NCBI GenBank assembly: GCA_023213315.1 | Contig: JAKCPI010005171.1 | Location: forward strand, 89,446 to 153,445 | Reading direction: 5' to 3' | DNA: 64,000 nucleotides | Source: Euborellia annulipes | Lineage: Eukaryota; Arthropoda; Insecta; Dermaptera; Anisolabididae | Shown: in pieces, positions 4,638-56,451 of the stretch | Numbering within the stretch: the stretch's first letter is position 1 | Layout of the letters: each line of letters starts with the position of its first letter | Made by a program: the position numbers and the translations under genes | The notes under the pieces: generated by a model | The model's database searches: none | What the model was told of the DNA's origin: nothing | What the model saw: only the letters and a program-made list of their open reading frames with translations

Positions 4638-4837
4638 AAGTGTTTTTCTTTCAAAAAAATAATCAAAAATTATTATTTTTAACAATAATTTTATTACCAT
4701 ATTTAAATACAGTGAGAATTTAGCTGGATATATAGTATATCTATTTAGATAAAAATATTCATTTCTTGGCAATAATTTAAAGAAATTTGATAAAATAAAT
4801 GAAACTTTAAACTGGATACTATTTATATCTAAAGGAC

Positions 4838-5222
4838 TAGGGTCCGACCGAAACAAGATTTTCAGCCGAAACCGAAACCGAATTTCTACCTCAATCTTAG
4901 TTTCGGCCGAAACCGTAACCGAAACCGAAACTTGTATTTACTATCAGGGGCGTATATAGAAATTTTTTCTGAGGGGGGGGCCCGCGGAACCTTTCCCCTT
5001 TTTGCGGACTCTTAAGATTTCCGCCTTGCGGGAAAATTTTTTCCTCAAGTGCAAATCATTTGACCTTTTTTATTTATTTATTTATTATATATATTTTTTA
5101 TGCGTGCGATTCTCATCCCATCTTTTCAGACTCAGGTTTCGGCCGGCCGAAAGTTTCGGCTAATTTTTGACCGAAACCGAAACCAGAATTTTTGGCCGAA
5201 ACCGAATTTCGGCCGGTTCCTA
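4838..5222. mobile_element. hAT-type non-autonomous element with 8-bp TSD
   Basis: Inverted termini TAGGGTCCGACCG and (read from the other end) TAGGAACCGGCCG enclose a non-coding body with many CCGAAACCGAAA-type repeats near both ends. The element is flanked by identical 8-bp copies of TAAAGGAC at 4830-4837 and 5223-5230. An 8-bp TSD with TAGGG termini fits hAT. Within it, 4947 onward starts a second hAT-like end (CAGGGGCGTATATAG, then a G-run) whose partner end is not visible. Confidence 0.85.
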
Positions 5223-5276
5223 TAAAGGACATTTAAGTTATCCAATTGAAAATTTATATTCAATTATTACAGTTGC

Positions 5277-5340
5277 AGACAGGGGCGGCGCGCCCACTAG
5301 GCGAACTAGGCGGTCGCCTTTGTCATAAATCAAGTACAAA
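5277..5340. repeat. hAT-like terminus fragment
   Basis: CAGGGGCGGCGCGCCC followed by TAGGCGAACTAGGCGGTCGC resembles the start of common hAT-type elements (CAGGGGCGG). The following 300 bp are AT-rich and I could not find the second end. Confidence 0.4.
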
Positions 5341-5779
5341 GAAAATAAAAAAATTTCTATAATACATTTTTAATATTAAGTAATTTTAATTTTATATTTA
5401 ACATTAAATATCACATATATACATTAAATGATACCTATACTATGAATATTTTTGGGTTCATTTATTTTTAGACTGTATCATAGTTATAAAATAATAGCTT
5501 GTGCTCACTTATTTTTTACAAAATAAAATTCACTTTTAATAAAATAAACATATTTAAAAGTGATCATATTTGTTTTGTTTTTATTTTCATAAAATCTGTT
5601 AATATAAGCAAACAAAACTGTGATTTACCCTCTACTCCGCATAGCAAACTTACTTATCTGCCCGCCACGTGACGTCATGCGCAGAGTAGGACGAGTTTTC
5701 ACTCCGAAGTGGACATACCTTGTTTTTTTGTATCATGATGCACATGTGCAGTTAACACTGCAGTTAATTCAAAAAGTAA

Positions 5780-6461
5780 AAATCTGGTGTGACTGGCGCA
5801 CAGCACACAACTTTCTCTTACCTTCGGTAATCGAAAGTTGTGTTCTGCGCTTGTCACACCAGATTTTTTGTGTCGACATATATTTAGTTCCCGACAGTAC
5901 GGAACATTTGAATTCAGATGTAAAATTTATAAGTATGGGAAAATATTTATATTTTGTTACCATGGCAACCATTTCTCCTATCTTCCCTATGAAATACAAG
6001 AGTAAAGTGGTCTTCAGAAGATTTCAATTGCAAAATGAGAATATACATTTTAAAGAAAATCTAAAAATTAATTGATTTTTGAATTTTAAAAAAAATCGTT
6101 GGAGCAAATTTTGAGAAAATCGAAAAAAACTGAAAAAATACATCAGTAAAGTACTAGTACTCTTTGGCCGATTTTGATTAAAAGCTTATTTTTCCGGTCC
6201 CGGGGGGTGTTTAACTTAAATATAAAATTTCAACCTCGTAGCTCAATTCCTTCATCCTTAAAATTGAACACACACCCACCCACCCACCCACCCACACACC
6301 CACACACCCACAGACAGACCATGTCGCGAAAACCACTTTTTTGGATTCAGGGGACCTCAAAACGTGAAGATCCATCAAAATCTCGACATCGAATTTTTGA
6401 CATGAATCCAATACTTTCTCTCTATATATATATTACATATATACATAGGTAAGAGAAAGTA
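5780..6461 (+). repeat. Family A element, full-length copy
   Basis: A reference copy of family A. The head is an 89-bp near-perfect hairpin (5780-5868; arms from AATCTGGTGTGACTGGCG to its complement). A ~370-bp AT-rich body follows, including GTACATCAGTAAAGTACTAG. Then a CACC/CACA microsatellite (6269-6314), a very conserved block (ATGTCGCGAAAACCAC, then GGATTCAGGGGACCTC), and a second AT-rich hairpin at 6412-6460. Both hairpins contain CTTTCTCTTACC or its complement. No protein of its own is convincing. The class is unknown; no TIR or TSD is evident. Confidence 0.9.
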
Positions 6462-7159: not shown

Positions 7160-8030
7160 CTGACAAAGGTTTTGAAATCGTTGTTAGCTATCTAATATTT
7201 ATTGAATAATAATCATGAATAGAGATTTTCATTCCCTTTCTATTGATACATATAAAATATTTTTCTATCTATTTTCATTTACGTGTTATAAACATCGCAT
7301 ATCGAAATTCTCCACCATGTGTCGTTAAAAAGAAGTTATTTCTCTTCGTTTAAAAATGACGCAGCACGTCTCTCTCTCTCTCTTTTTTTTTTTTTTTAAT
7401 AAAAGAGGTATAGCAGCATCTCTCTTCTATTGATGGATTGATTGTCGTGTCTGAAATTACAATTAGCTAACGCCTATTTGACAAGAAAAAAACATAAGCA
7501 ATGAATGCCTTTGTAGAAATAAACTCCCTCTAGTGGGGGGGGGGAAGGCTCTTAAATTAATCGATTCATTTAAGGCAGCAACCTTTGTGAGAGAGATCCA
7601 ATTAATTTAGCTGTCATAGTGAATGAGCCTTTTTGCTTTCCCCTACCTACATTTAATGTAATTACCGGCTGCGGGAAATGTATTTATATTTTTATATGAT
7701 AATAAAATAAATTTCTAACCGATCGAAACAACTTTGTCGATTAATTTAATTAAAATTAACCTTATAAACTTAAAACAATAATTTGACAACACTGTAAAAA
7801 ATCTGGGGAGCACAATAACTTTAAAAAGGGGGGACTTAGCCCAAAAAAAGGTTAGTAGGGGGAGGGCGCAAATTAGACACTTGCCACAGGCGCTTCATAC
7901 CCTTGTTACGCCACTGGGAATTTTAGAATTCCCACACTGCTTTCGAAAAAATACAATTTTTAACGAAAATTACTATACAATGTATGTAAAATTACAATAC
8001 ATCTTTAAGGTTCAGTAAATCCGGAATGAG
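7160..8030. other. AT-rich stretch, mostly unrecognised
   Basis: No gene. A CT run lies at 7369-7384. At 7840-7917 a G/C-richer segment ends in TTGTTACGCCACTG, which looks like the right terminus of a hAT-type element (reverse complement CAGTGGCGTAAC). Its left end is not visible. Confidence 0.45.
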
Positions 8031-8059
8031 CAACGCAGCTAGTCGTTTTTTCAATTTTT

Positions 8060-8279
8060 ATTTAAACATAAAGTGCCAGGGCCAACGTTTCGGTCACATA
8101 TAGGACCATCATCAGGGCCAAGCCATTGTCAATTTATTGATCCTCTTGATCATATTGGCCAAAGAAATTATTAACAATTTGATCATTGGATTTGTTGTAT
8201 TATTAATAATTCCTTTGGCCAATATGATCAAGAGGATCAATAAATTGACAATGGCTTGGCCCTGATGATGGTCCTATAT
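8060..8279 (-). mobile_element. Foldback element with hammerhead core (damaged right arm)
   Basis: Inverted arms 8098-8172 and 8196-8279 pair almost perfectly. The left side extends outward through a hammerhead-like motif on the minus strand; the right arm stops inside the same motif. This matches the foldback architecture at 40.9, 42.1, 25.8 and 52.1 kb. No TSD was found. Confidence 0.65.
8076..8124 (-). ncRNA. Hammerhead ribozyme motif (intact core)
   Basis: Read on the minus strand: stem I strand GGCC, core CTGATGA, one extra T, stem II GGTC/GACC with an 8-nt loop, GAAA, a minimal palindromic stem III (ACGT), nucleotide 17 = T, then GGCC closing stem I. All invariant hammerhead positions (C3 U4 G5 A6, G8 A9, G12 A13 A14) are present. 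The unpaired T after A9 is a departure from the textbook form, but it recurs in the sister copies. Confidence 0.7.
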
Positions 8280-9227
8280 TCAAACATACTCTATTTTTCG
8301 AAGAAAATTATAATTAAAAATTTTTTTTTTTTTGACGTGACGTCTTACAAATCATGTGTCTATAGTAGAGGTTAGGGAGGCATGCACGAAAAAGTTTATC
8401 GGCTTGAATAACTCCTCTGTCTTAAGAGGTATAATTATGAGAAATATACGGTTAGAAAGAATGAGTTTTCAGCTAAAGATTTCACCATTTATTTTTTTCC
8501 TATCATTTTATTTTATCCCGCCGCGGTAAATTTTAATTTGAAAGTTTTTATTGTAAACATTTGAACGCATAAATTTGTAAATTTAGTAGATAAATGCATA
8601 GTAGTTATCAGTTGCAAGGGAAATTTGTAAATTTAGTATTCCAAAACACTAAAAATATTTTTTTTTTTACAGTGCAGCTAAAAAACCAGCAAAACAAAAA
8701 AAAAAAACAATAAACAAAGAATATTAATCAACAACTAGGTGGTGTGATTTAATTAAAAATTAAACTTAAATCCCGCAATTTCGTTAAAAAAAAAAAAAAT
8801 CTGGCGTTATGAAGGATATAAAAAAAACAAATTGAGAGATTAATTTTAAGATTGCGATGATTGAGTGACCACACCTCTATTTTTAATTAATCCCCACAGG
8901 AGAGAGAGAGAGAGAGGTTATAAATAAATAACAACTTTTAGGGCGAAATCAAAATTTCGGTCCAATTATTGTCGATTTTCAGGGCGTGGTCATGGAGGTG
9001 GGACCAGGGGGAGGGGAGGGGAGGGGAGGGAGGAGGGGGGAGTGTAATCGGCCGTGTGCTAATTCAATTCATCAAGGTGGAAATTAATAATACAAGTTAG
9101 GAGGAGGAGACAACGAACCGAGTATTTATGTAAATTGAATTGATGATGACGTTAAATAATAATAATAATAATACGCTCCATTGGGATTGAATTGATTTCA
9201 GTTTTTTTTTTTTTAACGTTATCTATT
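8280..9227. other. AT-rich stretch without gene
   Basis: Poly(A)/poly(T) tracts, a GA run at 8897-8915 and a GGGGA-rich tract at 9000-9040. No coding region or recognised repeat family. Confidence 0.55.
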
Positions 9228-11895: not shown

Positions 11896-12179
11896 AATCT
11901 CAGCCAAAAACATCGGAGATGCAAAAAGGGGCGCCTCGCATTATTTTTGCCTAGCGTCGAGGTGAAATCAAAAAAATGCGCCTCGCTTTTCTGATTTATA
12001 TAAAAGCGAGGAAATATTTTCACTTAAATAAAACCCCTACAGAATTTTATTTGTTTCATATATCCTCGCTTTTATATAAATCAGAAAAGCGAGGCGCATT
12101 TTTTTGATTTCACCTCGACGCTAGGCAAAAATAATGCGAGGCGCCCCCTTTTGCATCTCCGATGTTTTTGGCTGAGATT
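11896..12179. repeat. Near-perfect long palindrome (foldback)
   Basis: Arms of about 118 bp (11896-12013 and 12063-12179) are nearly identical inverted copies around a ~50-bp spacer. They include CTCGCTTTTCTGATTTATA and GGCGCCTCGCATT. No ribozyme core, no ORF, no clear TSD. The high arm identity implies recent origin or gene conversion. Confidence 0.88.
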
Positions 12180-25770: not shown

Positions 25771-25874
25771 CTCTCCTCCTTTAACAGCTAATTTTTTTCA
25801 TTTCTATTTGAAAGGTAAAATACACTAGATTATGTGCTTGAAGGTTTTTTTTTTTTTTTATTAATTAAAATTAA

Positions 25875-25917
25875 CACTTAATACGTATTTCGACATTACT
25901 GTCATCATCAGAAGTGG
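25875..25917 (-). ncRNA. Hammerhead ribozyme motif, intact
   Basis: Minus strand: CACTT (stem I), CTGATGA, extra T, stem II GACA/TGTC with GTAA tetraloop, GAAA, self-complementary stem III ATACGTAT, nucleotide 17 = T, then AAGTG closing stem I with five pairs. Every invariant core base is present. This is the best-formed example in the window. Confidence 0.8.
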
Positions 25918-26420
25918 TTTTCTAAAATGAATACATCGTGAAGTTATCTACATTAAATACATCAAAAAAACATATGTTAACACAGATGGTGTGTGTGAAT
26001 ACTTACTTGTTAGTATTAGGATACATAGATGGTGTTACTGTTGGATGTATGGCGAGTATAGTTCAATACATAGATTGCTCAAAAATGTTTTGTGCCTAGA
26101 ATATATTAATTAGTGGGGTCTTATACAAGTCTAATTGTTCATTAACTATGTTTTTTCCCTGGAAATACAAGAAGCATTAAGAAAGGGAAAAAAACATAGT
26201 TAATGAACAATTACATTTGTATAAGACCCCACTAATTAATATATTCTAGGCACAAAACATGTTTGAGCAATCTATGTATTCAACTATACCCGCCATACAT
26301 GCAACAGTAACACCACCTATGTATTCTAATACTAAGTATTCACACACACCATCTGTGTTAACATATGTTTTTTTGATGTATTTAATGTAGATAACTTCAC
26401 GATGTATTCATTTTAGAAAA

Positions 26421-26463
26421 CCACTTCTGATAATGACAGTAATGTCGAAATACGTATTAAGTG
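26421..26463 (+). ncRNA. Hammerhead motif with G8 changed
   Basis: The right-arm copy of the same ribozyme. The core reads CTGATAA instead of CTGATGA: catalytic G8 is A. Stems I, II and III are otherwise unchanged. It is predicted to be inactive. Confidence 0.75.
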
Positions 26464-26749
26464 TTAATTTTAATTAATAAATAAAAAAAAAACCTTGAAA
26501 CACATAACCTAGTGTATTTTACCTTTCATATATACATAATGTTTCAACTTGAGCCTACGGTAGAAAGTTTAAATCTAATAAATTTTTTTCATTTCATTCT
26601 CCAGACAATGAATTATGAAGAACATTTTATCTCAACTCACCCATTCTTTAAAAAGGAGTTAACGCATTTGAAGACTTACCTGAAACAAAGAAAAAAAACG
26701 ATTAAATAATATCAAAGATAGAGAAATAAGAGAAAGGAAAGAGTTGGGA

Positions 26750-32239: not shown

Positions 32240-32685
32240 TTAAAAGACACTTAATGTTTGACACACATAGAATCAGAAAGCATCTTCAAATTTTCCTTTT
32301 TTTTTTTGCTTTGTCAGGCGGGAGGGTTAGTGTATTTTTTATTTGGTAGAAAAGATCTTAAATTGAATTAAACTCTCGCTTAGTTAATTTTCATTGAAAT
32401 ATAAATTGAATTTTACGTTTAAAAAAAAAAAAAAAATAATAATAAAATCTAATAGTCCATCTCTCTCTCTTTGGTTGAAACAAAAATATATTTGTTGTTG
32501 TTGTTCTTTAAAGTAGCCCTTTTGCGTGTAGGTCAGAAGGTTCTCTTTAAATATTGACAGATTTTTTTTTTATTATTATTAAAGAAATAAACTGGTATGA
32601 CCATCCCTCTGAACAGGGGCCAAGAGGAGAGTTTGGATTTAAAAAAAGTCAATTTCTCTTATCTTTTTCTCTATCCATGTAAATG
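32240..32685. other. AT-rich stretch without gene
   Basis: CT run at 32459-32470, GTT run at 32493-32505. Nothing else supported. Confidence 0.5.
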
Positions 32686-32689
32686 TCAA

Positions 32690-33368
32690 AAATCTGGTGT
32701 GACTGGCGCACAGCACACAACTTTCTCTTACCTTCGGTAATCGAAAGTTGTGTACTGTGCTTGTCACACCAGATTTTTTGTGTCGACATATATTTAGTTC
32801 CCGACAGTACGGAACATTTGAATTCAGATGTAAAATTTATAAGTATGCGAAAATATTTATATTTTGTAACCAAGGCAACCATTTCTCCTATCTTTCCTAT
32901 GAAACACAAGAGTAAAGTGTGCTTCAAACAATTTTGAGGGCGAAACGAGAATATACATTTGAAAGAGCATCTAAAAAATAATTGATTTTTGAATTTTAAT
33001 CAAAATCGTTAGAGCGAATTTTGAGAAAATCGAAAAAAACTGAAAAAGTACATCAGTAAAGTACTAGTACTCTTTGGCCGATTTTGATTAAAAGCTTATT
33101 TTTCCGGTCCCGGGGGGTGTTTAACTTAAATATAAAATTTCAGCCTCATAGCTCAATTCCTTCATGCTTAAAAGTGAACACAGACACACACACACACCCA
33201 CCCACCCACCCACCCACAGACAGACCATGTCGCGAAAACCACTTTTTTGGATTCAGGGGACCTCAAAACGTGAAGATCCATCAAAATCTCGACATCGAAT
33301 TTTTGACATGAAACCAATACTTTCTCTCTATATATATATTACATATATACATAGGTAAGAGAAAGTAA
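32690..33368 (+). repeat. Family A element, full length
   Basis: Very close to the copy at 5780. Head hairpin 32690-32779, CACC microsatellite 33185-33217, distal block and terminal hairpin to 33368. Confidence 0.9.
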
Positions 33369-35870: not shown

Positions 35871-36375
35871 ATTATTATTATTATTATTATTATGGACCTA
35901 AGGCACTTTGAACTGCGACCATTAGTTGATCTTTTGTTCTATCCTTTGTTGTCCAATATCTGTCCTTAGAATAGACCCGTCCCTTTTACCAGGGCCAGTA
36001 TATTCTTTGGAGAGGCTTTTGATATTTCCTCAGGTTTTGTTTCAGCCCTTTCGAAAATTAGCCTTCTTTGACGGGTTAGTGCAATACATTCGCACATGAT
36101 GTGTTCCGCCGTTTCTTTTGTCAGATTGCAGAGGCGACATATATCGTCATCCGCTCTGCCCATCTTCATTAGATGATATTTTAAAGGACAGTGTCCTGTT
36201 AGAAGACCGCTTATCAGTCTTAGTTCATTTCTGTTTAGAGCGATAAGTCTCGCACCCTTAGGCAGTAGGCGGATGGCACCTTTCATTCTGATTCGTAACA
36301 GAATCTTCCAATTATTCTGCGAAATATTACGACTGGGCCAACCTAAACCAAGACTAATGTAATCTCACCCTTCTA
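35871..36375 (-). pseudogene. I-type LINE 3' end with (AAT)n tail
   Basis: The minus-strand frame (about 36363 to 35966, ATG-independent) includes LGLGWPSRNISQNNWKILL, then RLISGLLTGHCPLKYHLMKM, ADDDICRLCNLTKETAEHI and MCECIAL. The LTGHC...KMG...CRLC...ETAEHIMCEC pattern is the conserved C-terminal zinc-like motif after the RNase H domain of I/R1/jockey LINEs. Downstream on the minus strand are ~70 bp and an (AAT)n run at 35871-35893, as in I elements. An in-frame stop near 36366 and a 5' truncation make it dead. Confidence 0.8.
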
Positions 36376-40876: not shown

Positions 40877-40942
40877 CTATTCATATATTTGAATAGGAAG
40901 AATAAATGAGCAAGCAGCTAGTTATATTTCAATTTATTAACA

Positions 40943-40993
40943 AACCAGGGCCGACGTTTCGGTCACGTATGGGACCATCTTCAGGGCCAGGTT
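40943..40993 (-). ncRNA. Hammerhead ribozyme motif, left arm
   Basis: Minus strand: AACC and GGCC of stem I, CTGAAGA core, T, stem II GGTC/GACC, GAAA, minimal stem III ACGT, nucleotide 17 = C, then GGCC and GGTT completing stem I across a small internal loop. All invariant bases present. Confidence 0.75.
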
Positions 40994-41135
40994 AATGTCT
41001 GAAAATACATACATCACTCGCTCTCTGTCCATGGTATGATAATAATTAACATTTGAGGCATGATCATGATTAGTTTACGTATAATTGTGAATGCCCAATA
41101 TAACTTGGCGAGGATTGTATGTATTTTCAGACATT

Positions 41136-41186
41136 AACCTGGCCCTGAAGATGGTCCCATACGTGACCGAAACGTCGGCCCTGGTT
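41136..41186 (+). ncRNA. Hammerhead ribozyme motif, right arm
   Basis: The plus-strand counterpart of 40943-40993 with the same core and stems, unmutated. Predicted cleavage is 3' of the C following GAAACGT, at about 41175. Confidence 0.78.
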
Positions 41187-41290
41187 TGTTAATAAATTGA
41201 AATATAACTAGCTGCTTGCTCATTTATTCTTCCTATTCTATTATCAACACTCAGCTATATACCTTCTTCAAATATTCATATATTTCTAAC

Positions 41291-41589: not shown

Positions 41590-42114
41590 TTTCTAACCAA
41601 TAAATAAATCAAATCCATATAATTTTAATAAATAATTAAATTGAAATATAAAACCAAGATAAAAATCTCGAAATTTATATTTATTTTCGCTAAATTTTCA
41701 AATAATCTTATTTTAAAATTCTTTATATTCTGGGATGAAGGTTATTTTAAATAGACCTCGAAGAGCCGCAGTTATTTAATCAAATCACTCAATGTGAAAA
41801 AACAAAAATGTAAAACTTTTATCAATTTTATATATTTATATATATAATTCACTAATGTCCGTCTGTCTGTCTGTCACGCTCTATTTAGGCAACTTCCCGT
41901 TGGTATTTTGAAATAAAATTTTATATGCTTAAAAATGACCTTCTAGGGATTATATGAAAATTATTTTCATCCCGAAATTTCTATAACTCTTGAGTTATTA
42001 ATTCCTAAAGTTACGATTTCTCCCATAGGAAATGTATAGAGAAATATTTATGTATTCTCGACAGAAAAAAGACGCTATATTTTCAGCAATTTTTATTAAT
42101 TATCAAGGCATTAT

Positions 42115-42155
42115 TTCCAGATATTTCGGAGACACTATCGGCACTCCTTCTTCAA
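42115..42155 (-). ncRNA. Hammerhead motif with C3 changed
   Basis: Left-arm copy on minus; the core is TTGAAGA rather than CTGAAGA, and stem I is correspondingly disturbed. Predicted inactive. Confidence 0.65.
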
Positions 42156-42188
42156 TTATAAGGGCCGTAATGTGGTGAATGAGGTGAA

Positions 42189-42234
42189 TTCCACTGAAGA
42201 AGGAGTGCCGATAGTGTCTCCGAAATATCTGGAA
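42189..42234 (+). ncRNA. Hammerhead ribozyme motif, intact
   Basis: Stem I TTCCA/TGGAA (5 bp), CTGAAGA, extra A, stem II GGAG/CTCC, GAAA, minimal stem III ATAT, nucleotide 17 = C. It has all invariant bases. Cleavage is predicted at about 42229. Confidence 0.8.
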
Positions 42235-42416
42235 ATATTGCCTTGATAATTAATAGAAATTGCTGAAAATATAGCGTCTTTTTTCTGTTGATTAACCAAC
42301 TTTCAGCAACACCACTTAAAGAGAATTTATGTATTCTTTTCATTTGTGTATTCCATGAATGTAAACAAATCCTCAAGCACGCACTGGATTGAAATGGAAT
42401 AATAATAATAATTTTA

Positions 42417-46633: not shown

Positions 46634-46795
46634 AAGCCAGGAAAGAAATCAGACAAAAATTTAATCAATCTTTATCTAATTTTTAATTTCGATTGCCGAC
46701 GTTTCGGACGCAAATCGCATCCTTCCTCAGTACACTCGGAAGTTAGTAAAATTAGATAAAGATTGATTAAATTTTTGTCTGATTTCTTTCCTGGC
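46634..46795 (-). mobile_element. Foldback with hammerhead in the loop
   Basis: Arms 46634-46685 and 46748-46795 (GCCAGGAAAGAAATCAGAC and complement) enclose a ~60-bp loop that carries one hammerhead motif on the minus strand. No TSD identified. Confidence 0.7.
46691..46738 (-). ncRNA. Hammerhead ribozyme motif
   Basis: Minus strand: CTGAGGA core (N7 = G), extra A, stem II GGATGC/GCGTCC (six pairs, one wobble), GAAA, stem III ACGT, nucleotide 17 = C. Stem I is interrupted by mismatches near the core. Confidence 0.68.
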
Positions 46796-46920
46796 GTAAC
46801 CTTTTAAAAATCTTATAATAATTTTATTTTTATGAAGAAAATAACAAAAATGGATCTTTTTCGGTCAATCTTTATTTAATGAAAACAAAAATGACAAAAA
46901 TTATTAATCAATTCTAGATT

Positions 46921-46958
46921 GGGACGTTTCAATTCTAGATTGAGAATTATCTTCAGAC
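46921..46958 (-). ncRNA. Possible hammerhead motif, weak stem I
   Basis: Minus strand: CTGAAGA, T, stem II AATTCT/AGAATT, GAAA, ACGT, C. The core is complete but the usual G-C pair at the base of stem II is A-T, and stem I pairs poorly. Confidence 0.5.
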
Positions 46959-47548: not shown

Positions 47549-48046
47549 CACTTTTAAGCATGAAGGAATTGAGCTATGAGGCTGAAATTTTATATTTAAG
47601 TTAAACACCTCCGGGGACCGGAAAAATAAGCTTTTAAGAGTGTTAATCAAAATCGGCCAAAGAGTACTAGTACTTTACTGATGTACTTTTTCAGTTTTTT
47701 TCGATTTTCTCAAAATTCGCTCTAACGATTTTGTTTAAAATTCAAAAATCAATTATTTTTTAGATGCTCTTTCAAATGTATATTCTCGTTTTGCCCTCAA
47801 AATTGTTTGAAGACCACTTTACTCTTGTACTTCATAGGGAAGATATGAGAAATGGTTGCCATGGTAACAAAATATAAATATTTTCCCATACTTATAAATT
47901 TTACATCTGAATTCAAATATTCCCTACTGTCGGAAACTAAATACATGTCGACACAAAAAATCTGGTGTGACAAGCACAGTACACAACTTTCGATTACAGA
48001 AGGTAAGAGAAAGTTGAGTGCTGTGCGCCAGTCACACCAGATTTTT
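47364..48046 (-). repeat. Family A element, full length
   Basis: Distal hairpin 47364-47415, pure GT microsatellite 47517-47546, head hairpin 47958-48046. Minus orientation. Confidence 0.9.
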
Positions 48047-48519
48047 GTCCTTTGATTTTCCTTACGGCAATATACAAACAAATCTATCTTTTATATGGAA
48101 ATTAAAATCCACCTCCCCTCCCAGTTCGAGGGCGTTAAAACGAATATATTACATTATCATATTTTTTTTTCCTCCTCATTTGTGAATATGAACAAAACAA
48201 ATTACCAAACATAAATCGAATGATGGTGGTATATTTATATATAGCGGGGGGGGGGCCCGCCCCTTGTCTTTTCTGTTTTTTTTTTTTTTGTGGTTTTTTT
48301 TTTTTGACTTGTTTTGGTCTTCTTGGCCTCCCGTCGCAAATTTGTTTGTTATGTAAATAAATAAAAAAAATGTAAACATGGAAATATTTATATTTTGTGA
48401 GGGGTGGAATTATAATATAGTACGATATGAATGAATGAAATGTAATTAAAAATCAAAGTCAAATTGCAATATTTAATGATTAAATATAAAAAGTGGATGG
48501 CTCGCAAAATAAATAAATA
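48047..48519. other. AT-rich stretch without gene
   Basis: G run at 48245-48253 with GCCCGCCCC and long T runs at 48278-48305. No gene. Confidence 0.5.
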
Positions 48520-51992: not shown

Positions 51993-52105
51993 AGAAAAAT
52001 CTATTGAAGTAAAAGAAATCATGTATGCTCGGACGATTGAATTAAGTGTATGGAGAAGAAAAAAAAAAAAAACAGCGACTGCTTTCCACGTCAAAATAAT
52101 CTATT

Positions 52106-52148
52106 TGCAAATATTTCGGTCTGCCTAACGCAAACCATCCTCAGTGCA
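52106..52148 (-). ncRNA. Hammerhead ribozyme motif, left arm
   Basis: Minus: TGCA stem I, CTGAGGA, T, stem II GGTTTGC/GCAGACC (one G-U), GAAA, stem III ATAT, nucleotide 17 = T, TGCA. Complete core. Confidence 0.72.
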
Positions 52149-52280
52149 TCAACTGGAACATAAAAGACACACATTATGCACTGTCCGGCAATATACAATA
52201 TTATACATCAATTTACATACATGTATAATATTGTATATTGCCGGACAGTGCATTATGTGTGTCTTTTATGTTCCAGTTGA

Positions 52281-52323
52281 TGCACTGAGGATGGTTTGCG
52301 TTAGGCAGACCGAAATATTTGCA
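52281..52323 (+). ncRNA. Hammerhead ribozyme motif, right arm
   Basis: Plus-strand mirror of 52106-52148, unmutated in the core. Confidence 0.72.
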
Positions 52324-52399
52324 AATAGATTATTTTGACGTGGAAAGCAGTCGCTGTTTTTTTTTTTTTTTCTTCTCCATAACCTTAGAAAAATCTATT

Positions 52400-54578: not shown

Positions 54579-54662
54579 TTTTATTTTTTCACATTCATAC
54601 TCACATTCACATAGTCTTTTCGTCAACTTAGACCATTTATGACTCTAAACGATACTCGTATT
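54579..54662 (-). mobile_element. SINE-B tail fragment interrupted by a foldback
   Basis: CACATTCATACTCACATTC, GTCTTTTCGTCAACTTAG and GACTCTAAACGATACTCGTA. The next element duplicated GATACTCGTATT. Confidence 0.75.
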
Positions 54663-54926
54663 GTTCAAGATGATAAGGAATAAATCCCAAAGAAGAATAC
54701 AGCGAAATTTATTTCATTTAATTTTAATAAAAATTCTTAATCACTTGCTGACGTTTCGGTTCGGGTTTGAACCATCATCGGAGCTACAAACATGGAAAAT
54801 AATACAAAAGATGTTTTTTGTTTACAAATCATTTGAAAAGACCTAATAAATTAATTGCATTCATCTTTGGGATTTATTCCTTATCCTCTTGAACATAAAA
54901 CTACAGCTATAACAAATATTCAATCA
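54663..54926. mobile_element. 264-bp foldback retroposon, 12-bp TSD, degenerate hammerhead
   Basis: GATACTCGTATT at 54651-54662 and 54927-54938. Arms 54663-54700 and 54857-54895 pair; a 31-bp tail follows. A hammerhead-like motif lies in the loop. It inserted in SINE-B, and family A begins at the right TSD. Confidence 0.78.
54746..54787 (-). ncRNA. Hammerhead-like motif, U4 changed
   Basis: Minus: core CCGATGA (U4 to C), stem II GGTTC/GAACC, GAAA, ACGT, C, then AGC pairing with GCT. Predicted inactive. Confidence 0.6.
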
Positions 54927-54938
54927 GATACTCGTATT

Positions 54939-56301
54939 TTTACTTTCTCTTACCTATGTATATATGTAATATATATATAGAGAGAAAGTATTGGATTCAT
55001 GTCAAAAATTCGATGTCGAGATTTTTTGATGGATCTTCACGTTTTGAGGTCCCCTGAATCCAAAAAAGTGGTTTTCGCGACATGGTCTGTCTGTCTGTGT
55101 GTCTGTGTGTCTGTGTGTGTGTGTGTCTGTGAACAAAATATCTCAAGAACGAAAAGAGCTAGGAAGTTGAAATTTTATATTTAAGTTAGGCACCCCCCCC
55201 CATGGGACGTGACACGAAGCTTTTGAACAAAATCGACCAAAGAGTACTAGCACTTTACTGATTCACTTTTTCAGTTTTTTTCGATTTTCTCAAAATTTGC
55301 TCCAACGATTTTTTTTAAAATTCAAAAATCAATTATTTTTTAGATTCTCTATAAAATGTATATTCTCATTTTGTGATTGAAATCTTCTGAAGACCACTTT
55401 ACTCTTGTACTCCATAGAAAAGATAGGAGAAATGGTTGCCATGAGTATCAAAATATAAATATTTTCCCATACTTATAAATTTTACATCTTGAATTCAATT
55501 GTACCCTACTGTCGGAAACTAAATACATGTCGACACAAAAAATCTGGTGTGACAAGCACAGTACACAACTTTCGATTACCGAAGGTAAGAGAAAGTTGTG
55601 TGCTGCTGCGCCAGTCACACCAGATTTTTACTTTATCTTACCTATGTATATATGTAATATATATATAGAGAGAAAGTATTGGATTCATGTCAAAAATTCG
55701 ATGTCGAGATTTTGATGGATCTTCACGTTTTGAGGTCCCCTGAATCCAAAAAAGTGGTTTTCGCGACATGGTCTGTCTGTGTGTGTGTGTGTCTGTGTGT
55801 CTGTGTGTGTTCAATTTTAAGCATGAAGGAATTGAGCTAGGAGGTTGAAATTTTATATTTAAGTTAAACACCCCCCGGGACCGGAAAAATAAGCTTTTAA
55901 TCAAAATCGGCCAAAGAGTACTAGTACTTTACTGATGCACTTTTTCAGTTTTTTTCGATTTTCTCAAAATTTGCTCCAACGATTTTTTTTAAAATTCAAA
56001 AATCAATTATTTTTTAGATGCCTTTTAAAATGTATATTCTCGTTTTGCGATTGAAATCTTCTGAAGACCACTTTACTCTTGTATATCATAGGGAAGATAG
56101 AAGAAATGGTTGTCATGGTAACAAAATATAAATATTTTCCCATACTTATAAATTTTACATCTGAATTCATATGTTCCGTACTGTCGGAAACTAAATATAT
56201 GTCGACACAAAAAATCTGGTGTGACAAGCACAGAACACAACTTTCGATTACCGAAGGTAAGAGAAAGTTGTGTGCTGTGCGCCAGTCACACCAGATTTTT
56301 A
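54939..56301 (-). repeat. Two family A elements in head-to-tail tandem
   Basis: Copies 54939-55627 and 55626-56301 are joined directly: the first ends in the head hairpin CCAGATTTTT and the second starts with TTTTTACTTTATC, sharing the T run. The two differ in microsatellite length and in the CCCCATGGGACG versus CCGGGACCGG stretch, so they are not a recent duplication of one copy. Confidence 0.88.
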
Positions 56302-56451
56302 ATATATCTATTGGGAGTCCAGGCATTTTCTATTTAAGCCATTTGGAATCCAAATGACTTAAATAAAATTATCGGACTGCCTGGGGTCCGAACCCGCGAC
56401 GTTCGGTATAGAAGGTAGGCACGCTACCAACTACTCCAAGCCCCGTGGGCG
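56302..56451 (-). mobile_element. SINE-B head part, variant subfamily
   Basis: Body hairpin, GGGGTCCGAACCCGCGACG, TACCTTCTATACCGAACG head and GCCCCGTGGGC. The 3' part is missing at the family A junction. Confidence 0.82.

Follow-up and report, generated by a model that had tools for sequence, protein, structure and literature searches.

Spliced leader foldbacks of a Penelope-like element in Euborellia annulipes point to insertion primed from both target strands

Introduction

Penelope-like elements (PLEs) are the third class of eukaryotic retroelements, and their mode of insertion is largely unknown. According to the available text of PMC3846280, canonical Penelope copies consist of a pLTR, an ORF, and a second pLTR with an adjacent, shorter inverted pLTR, and have an optional 31-bp tail, a 9-bp target site duplication (TSD) and a TCACT initiator; the same text favours an antisense template on the basis of intron retention, its authors stating that experiments are needed and leaving the choice between sense and antisense open. 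In the available text of PMC11167929, a PLE protein acts on both DNA strands by cleavage and extension, reverse transcription starts at the same place on either strand in the assay used, two adjacent internal start sites delimit the tail, and additional insertion steps are described as “yet to be validated experimentally.” Minimal type I hammerhead ribozymes have been described from PLEs and Terminons (Cervera & de la Pena 2014; Lunse et al. 2017; via the available text of PMC7761336 and PMC7229834), and type I hammerheads also occur in metazoan non-LTR retrozymes, which are arranged in direct tandem and involve circular RNA (available text of PMC7229834).

Here, a foldback in a 64,000-nucleotide stretch of the E. 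annulipes genome (assembly GCA_023213315.1, contig JAKCPI010005171.1; hereafter the window) was compared with these systems. Endonuclease-bearing PLEs of the Penelope/Poseidon type (Pen2a_Av of Adineta, PMC3846280; Poseidon of Anolis, PMC11167929), as far as the available texts describe them, resemble the family studied here in the pLTR with its shorter adjacent inverted partner, the optional one-sided tail of 30 to 40 bp, the short TSD, the TCACT-type initiator, the hammerhead near the leader end, and the ORF with reverse transcriptase (RT) and GIY-YIG domains. The window copy differs in having neither ORF nor promoter and consisting of two spliced leader arms only; moreover, unlike the retained introns and proposed antisense template of the Adineta PLE, sense spliced templates are indicated here. 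PLE hammerheads, inverted pLTRs and tails are already published, and since both PMC3846280 and PMC11167929 describe the same plan in their available text, the plan is known and the window copy is a leader-only version of it. No description of spliced, concordant leader foldbacks was found in the literature searched. From each such foldback a single event can be read: the polarity and 5' end of the template, where reverse transcription began, how the cut was staggered and how the ends were joined.

A leader-only insertion of a Penelope-like element

The window foldback (Table 1) has arms of 123 bp each (40891-41013 and 41116-41238) that are 100% complementary and separated by 102 nt; an alternative reckoning of the foldback at 40891 gives arms of 137 nt at 96%. 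Additional sequence outside the arms is present on the right side only. Positions in the underlying unit are numbered q1 to q259; the arm that ends in the tail is called the T arm, and its inverted, tail-free partner the N arm. The whole feature (40891-41272) corresponds to leader only, without coding capacity, and is a nonautonomous product. The T arm was matched over q1-q259 to the genomic pLTR of a sister copy, L089, and intron sequence at the splice junction of the unit was also seen in L060, L066 and others. ARAGORN, a Pfam scan of seven window ORFs and a PDB sequence search returned nothing bearing on the foldback.

Table 1. Coordinates of the foldback and of related features in the window
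Feature	Position	Strand	Remarks
Left TSD, TATTCATATATTT	40879-40891	.	Exact 13 nt; same letters at 41273-41285
N arm	40891-41013	-	Antisense copy of spliced leader, running inward from a proximal reverse transcription start at q~225-231; truncated; tail-free
Hammerhead core of N arm (minimal)	40953-40984	-	Core pattern match
T arm (unit q1-q259)	41014-41272	+	Leader of spliced PLE mRNA; begins at inferred transcription start TCACTC (41014) and includes tail
Hammerhead stem I strands (T arm)	41136-41144 and 41177-41186	+	Predicted pairing
Exon-exon junction GG|CC	41142-41143	+	121-nt GT..AG intron at same point in L089
Hammerhead core of T arm (minimal), CTGAAGA-T-GGTC(loop)GACC-GAA-ACGT-C	41145-41176	+	Predicted cleavage 41176/41177
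Proximal reverse transcription start zone P (inferred)	41235-41244	+	Outer end of most sister N arms
One-sided tail	41245-41272	+	Ends at inferred distal reverse transcription start D (q259)
Right TSD	41273-41285	.	Exact copy of left 13-nt TSD
Second family, same plan	42046-42337	+	13-bp TSD; N arm; T arm core 42194 (GAAATATC); 36-nt one-sided tail 42289-42324
Third family	54651-54938	-	Long N arm; core variant 54781 (CCGATGA); short T arm; ~31-nt one-sided tail; 12-bp TSD
Foldback akin in sequence to that at 40891	8024-8299	-	Core 8115; TSD not found; likeness read without alignment

Several sister copies carry more than the leader, L089 being a long copy in which an inverted N arm (q227-q139) is followed by a 5'-truncated ORF and a 3' pLTR. 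The ORF (4646-5641; 332 codons) encodes YVDD, an RT motif, as well as a GIY-YIG domain (PF01541, E=1.9e-4, 22.1 bits, slightly below the 22.6 cut-off); the RT domain is truncated and gave no RVT_1 match of its own. Among the 20 homologues of the encoded protein, the seven with a named organism were all from insects, and one was annotated as “Putative penelope-2 aae.” The 3' repeat comprises a promoter stretch, q1-129, a 121-nt intron (GTAATT...TTGTAG) and q130-259 with the tail, and the flanks of the copy (gagcattta/gatcattta) form a 9-nt TSD with one difference. The family thereby has, in L089, the ORF with RT and GIY-YIG domains of a PLE, along with the pLTR, inverted partner and one-sided tail of 30 to 40 bp by which PLEs are defined in the available text of PMC3846280 and PMC11167929, and a short TSD in an AT-rich target. 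By sequence comparison, the window feature is a leader-only insertion of a canonical, endonuclease-bearing PLE.

The original prediction had proposed, from the window alone, a foldback with arms of ~120 bp, a 13-bp TSD and a short tail, inserted via RNA and linked to Penelope; each of these elements was recovered, the RNA intermediate through the spliced arms and TSDs described below, and the Penelope link through the L089 ORF and its shared terminal repeat. The genome-wide copy search that it had suggested returned copies at every place scored.

A shared head-to-head plan among sister copies

Two samples of sister copies were analyzed. In sample 1, a genome search with the element itself gave 2,130 candidate places, of which 40 were scored (101 matched stretches, with six loci listed twice among the matches); all 40 were copies, some being the same insertion in two contigs. 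Sample 2 used the tail end as query (window 41177-41272) and gave 1,608 candidates, 40 scored and 39 new loci analyzed, mostly with the same head-to-head plan. Both samples were picked by similarity to the window copy, such that their frequencies are not genome-wide rates, and the foldback query of sample 1 may favour foldbacks. Subtracting 15 places that share another's flank from the 77 with a T arm left 62, and setting aside L005, which occupies the L004 site, left 61 distinct sites; L005 was likewise left out of the TSD, promoter-entry and splice-concordance counts.

At 37 of the 40 places in sample 1 (four of them, L005, L009, L036 and L040, being second contigs of the same insertions), a T arm reaching q259 was joined head to head to an inverted N arm that stopped short of it. 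Across the 61 distinct sites, a head-to-head partner arm was present at 55, counted by eye. No N arm was found in the stretches covered at L037, L057, L061, L068, L081 or L082 (for L082, within 9 kb); these six sites show that two-ended priming is not obligatory and that one-sided events occur. In L015 and L038 the arms are head to head and neither reaches q259. Because reaching q256-259 was the criterion by which T arms were picked, their end is a selected one. The tail was absent from every N arm seen, and the outer N ends fell within q217-237 in all 45 intron-free pairs, a count that includes both L004 and L005 and leaves out 13 intron-bearing and four single-armed copies.

Among 50 sites with outer ends close enough together to test, 47 are surrounded by an exact TSD of at least 8 nt, as against 3.7% with mismatched flanks, and the median TSD length is 12 nt versus 5 in a null that paired flanks from different copies. 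A+T makes up 90% of the first 10 nt beyond the tail.

Spliced sense RNA as template, with one event per copy

In spliced arms the intron has been cut out exactly at GT..AG, and the template was therefore a sense RNA. Among arms that reach the 5' end of the unit, none of the 34 spliced arms enters the promoter, compared with seven of the eight intron-bearing arms (Fisher p=3e-7); the exception is an intron-bearing N arm (L056) that stops at q1. Altogether, 32 of 90 arms end at q1-5. Since spliced arms do not pass q1 while nearly all intron-bearing arms continue, the RNA very probably begins at q1, an inferred transcription start with the sequence TCACTC. Spliced arms very probably derive from the mRNA leader, and most intron-bearing arms from the transcript's 3' repeat. 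The splice state was readable in both arms of 36 copies, with 30 spliced in both, 6 unspliced in both and none mixed (p=5e-7); the remaining 25 of the 61 sites comprise 20 with one arm readable or unclear and five without a readable core. These spliced, concordant leader foldbacks argue, for this family, against the antisense template proposed in the available text of PMC3846280.

Sequence variants indicate that the two arms of a copy share a source. Variants of T arms recurred in their own N arm in 96 of 145 cases, versus 745 of 3,836 in the N arms of other copies, and for rare variants the figures were 9 of 48 and 15 of 1,392 (both comparisons being from sample 1 only). Because the identity among N arms (0.947) is about that between T and N arms (0.941), the N arms do not form a separate lineage. 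A copy's own arm was at least as close as the best arm of any other copy in 10 of 33 copies; we think that this ranking is blurred by the young age of the family, and shared variants were used instead.

The inner junctions are scattered over the whole unit, unequal truncation is common, and either arm may be the longer. Of 45 junctions, 22 contain filler and 23 do not; the filler-free junctions overlap by a mean of 4.65 nt against 0.54 in the null, with overlaps of at least 2 nt in 17 of 23 (2.75 expected) and of at least 4 nt in 10 of 23 (0.27 expected), single overlaps being open to inflation by one nucleotide or more through BLAST extension. Given that junctions vary, that N arms are no lineage and that the two arms share source variants, each foldback appears to be made anew at insertion from sense PLE mRNA, and the inverted dimer, which the original prediction had taken as the unit, not to be heritable.

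Mode of insertion

We consider the best explanation, and a fairly probable one, to be a dead-end, leader-only PLE insertion through priming from both strands on sense leader RNA. Each of the two cut DNA ends probably primed reverse transcription, at start sites separated by ~30 nt, after which the cDNAs were joined. In this scheme, the PLE would be transcribed from the pLTR at TCACTC (q1) and a 121-nt intron removed from the 5' leader, a step that would also assemble the long form of hammerhead stem I. PLE protein bound to the leader would then make a ~12-nt staggered cut in AT-rich DNA, and the 3' ends of both target strands would prime reverse transcription on the same kind of sense RNA, one start lying at D (q259) and giving the tail, the other at P, ~30 nt upstream, and giving a tail-free arm. 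Each cDNA would extend toward the RNA 5' end and halt at the cap site or earlier; the facing cDNA ends would be joined by microhomology or filler, and copying across the junction would leave a foldback in head-to-head orientation, with a single tail and flanked by a TSD. Longer PLE copies would form likewise when reverse transcription begins in the 3' pLTR. Two-ended target-primed reverse transcription explains why one arm is inverted and truncation unequal, why there is a one-sided tail within a TSD, and also the microhomology, near-fixed outer ends and concordant splicing. Direct support from the sequences exists for the PLE family, the spliced sense RNA and its 5' end at q1, as well as for the tail-free N arm, arm concordance, TSD and microhomology; we infer the role of q1 as a cap site, simultaneous priming from both strands, the use of a single RNA or an RNA pair, and the order of steps.

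Two points sit less easily with two-ended priming. Reverse transcription started at the same place on both strands in the assay (available text of PMC11167929), so that the model leaves the one-sidedness of the tail unexplained; and two reverse transcriptions on the same stretch of one RNA would need strand displacement or two RNAs, which counts against it. Inverted L1 insertions arise by twin priming, in which the second target strand primes internally and a head-to-head join results; here, in contrast, the second start would lie in a fixed zone ~30 nt from the first rather than at a random internal site.

Of the other explanations, self-priming, in which an antisense PLE transcript or first cDNA folds back and is extended (the Adineta model in the available text of PMC3846280), seems unlikely to us. 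Near-symmetric interior junctions were found in 5 of 17 cases against a permutation mean of 1.7 (p=0.024), an excess from which some cDNA snap-back is possible; some junctions also looked palindromic by eye, and intron retention was seen in 8 arms extending to the start site as well as in others that are truncated. Sense RNA is nevertheless required for the arms from which the intron has been excised precisely at GT..AG, many pairs are unequally truncated with either arm longer, and a second arm made by snap-back would not end in the P zone each time. It is quite improbable that the foldback is instead a heritable nonautonomous element whose hairpin RNA serves as template, with dimers begetting dimers. 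The 2,130 candidate places (40 scored) would fit such an element, as would the geometry shared within L008/L009, L035/L036 and L039/L040, but each of these three pairs also shares its flanks and therefore represents one insertion present in two contigs. Nearly every other copy has its own junction position, with no identical inner junction noticed in 45, and the N arms form no lineage; in addition, reverse transcription would have to begin at the very end of the element, whereas the PLE studied in PMC11167929 appears to need template past the start site, as its available text indicates by a 172-nt minimum and a start at 111-118. Variable junctions and N arms without a lineage of their own led us to reject the foldback as a heritable unit.

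The original prediction had favoured a ribozyme-defined class of retroposons. A retrozyme-like element copied from hammerhead-processed circular RNA would explain the core in both arms, the pairing of stem II in 8 motif families (for which the descriptor demanded 3 pairs) and the start of both L076 arms exactly at the predicted cleavage site, and the window unit shares with metazoan non-LTR retrozymes (available text of PMC7229834) a noncoding nature, a scale of 170 to 400 nt, a type I hammerhead and, when present, a TSD. Against this, the unit is inverted and is bounded by q1, two inferred reverse transcription starts and the target site rather than by cleavage sites; 84 of 90 arms traverse the predicted cleavage site and only L076 begins there; and none of the 19 close pairs among the first 100 listed pattern matches (see below) is in direct tandem, as retrozyme units bounded by cleavage sites are. 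We regard this reading as very unlikely and rejected a ribozyme-bounded unit on the positions of the arm ends. An origin at the DNA level, as a foldback or MITE-type DNA transposon or as two unrelated adjacent insertions, is scarcely credible: inverted arms and a TSD would be expected of it, but the intron has been removed precisely, the tail is one-sided, and a single TSD surrounds the pair in 47 of 50 sites. A DNA foldback transposon was excluded by the spliced arms.

Leader foldbacks (61 sites; 2,130 candidate places) thus favour sense spliced mRNA and two-ended priming, and they make this mode testable with purified PLE protein and leader RNA. Whether PLEs in general integrate by paired target-primed reverse transcription, with both strands of one staggered break priming on the same sense mRNA species from start sites ~30 nt apart and microhomology joining the products head to head, is in our judgment evenly balanced. 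On that account, an inverted pLTR and one-sided tail would be the signature of every event, spliced leader foldbacks would be the short products, and splicing would, in this family, assemble stem I.

The hammerhead core and its role

Each arm holds one match to CTGAAGA-T-GGTC...GACC-GAAACGTC, the two lying on opposite strands, which bears out the core predicted originally for both arms; the extra nucleotide before stem II had gone unmentioned there. A generic core pattern matched 4 times in the window, including both foldback arms, and not at all in 100 shuffles. A relaxed scan that permitted 0, 1 or 2 extra nucleotides before stem II found 10 core sites in ~8 sequence families, compared with 0 to 2 per shuffle (20 shuffles); exactly one extra nucleotide lies between A9 and stem II in all 10, and a strict hammerhead descriptor without it had no match in the window. 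Helix III is self-complementary in all ten sites (ACGT, ATAT or ATACGTAT), a property largely built in because the scan demanded A...T ends and a second pair; in the window core it is reduced to ACGT. Stem II pairs in 8 of 8 motif families, both sides having changed in 10 cells, evidence that is only partly independent because the descriptor demanded at least 3 pairs. The conserved core and pairing stem II of a minimal type I hammerhead are therefore present, with one extra nucleotide. The published PLE and Terminon motifs introduced above have in common with these sites the CUGANGA / GAAA core and a helix III without nonconserved nucleotides (GAAACGUC); the extra nucleotide, in 10 of 10 window sites, is a possible difference from them.

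A check against covariance models, proposed with the original prediction, formally fails: the Rfam hammerhead models had no match in the window at the gathering score or at E<=5, and RF00008 had none genome-wide or in any of 14 control genomes. The pattern CTGANGA-N8..30-GAAACGTCGG had 9,605 matches in the genome (903 Mb) versus 3 for the reversed pattern, and a chance origin of the motif is therefore excluded. The first 100 listed of these matches comprised 69 distinct sequences, 45 of them with a stem II of at least 3 pairs; in those 45, one extra nucleotide gave the best pairing in 40, two in three and none in one, with one tie. The same 100 included 19 neighbours within 1 kb, all 19 of them head to head. 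Variation between arms was 0.028 in the core, 0.006 in stem II and 0.041 in the rest of the unit, figures from which no inference is drawn.

In 84 of 90 arms, copying continued past the predicted cleavage site, and the template was thus rarely cleaved, in agreement with the normal in vitro insertion of ribozyme mutants reported in the available text of PMC11167929. Judging from the arm ends, the ribozyme belongs to the parent pLTR and rides along as a passenger, and its cleavage is unnecessary for these insertions. In L076 (G000:C3825:85098-85257), both arms start at the predicted cleavage site (q164), at the palindrome GGCC, and this copy is a possible insertion from cleaved RNA. The original prediction also had one ribozyme in whichever strand is transcribed; this holds on paper, but the predicted fold of the foldback RNA (-252 kcal/mol) has the core base-paired within the duplex of the two arms. 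Splicing joins GG|CC inside the 5' strand of hammerhead stem I, whose predicted duplex energy is -13.1 kcal/mol spliced versus -3.6 unspliced, and splicing is accordingly predicted, by this model, to assemble the long form of stem I. Minimum-energy folds of 100- to 120-nt leader pieces gave no clean hammerhead; any self-cleavage would probably take place in a dimer or with the help of protein.

An ATG at the start of stem II in the window copy opens a 13-codon frame (MVPYVTETSALVC, stop) across the ribozyme (41151-41192); in the Anolis PLE, the main ORF begins at the stem II start (available text of PMC11167929).

Other foldbacks and repeats in the window

Several window foldbacks share the plan, as originally predicted; the accompanying claim that they share no sequence seems not to hold for the one at 8024-8299, which, read without alignment, also looks like a sequence relative of that at 40891. 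A search with the second family gave 1,407 candidates, of which 40 were scored, and yielded four short stretches. One tail was present in all three copies with both ends covered, the window copy included, and L092 and L093 are head to head, their left end lying outside the sequence covered.

No clear TSD was found around the hammerhead-bearing window foldbacks at 52059, 46636, 25846 and 8098. That at 52059-52370 has 150-bp arms (99%) with a long A/T run and a core with ATAT as helix III in both (52285, +; 52144, -), and no TSD longer than 7 nt was found. In the large foldback at 25846-26492, with 160-bp arms (99%) and a core at 25911 (-), helix III is the 8-nt palindrome given above. At 46636-46956, two different hammerhead repeats adjoin (cores 46730 and 46956, both -), only the first being in a foldback. 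A further foldback at 11896-12179 has GCGAGGCGC-rich arms of 122 bp (98%) within a 10-bp direct repeat (TTATTAAATA). No core was detected there by the relaxed scan, and the foldback is perhaps a different kind of element.

A remnant ORF at 35966-36364 (-) has a weak zf-RVT match (E=1.1e-5, slightly below the cut-off) and is probably the end of a non-LTR retrotransposon. An interspersed repeat family of ~215 to 540 bp, 82 to 96% alike, occupies at least 10 places in the window (5766-6308, 32683-33209, 47643-48058 and 55770-56312 among them).
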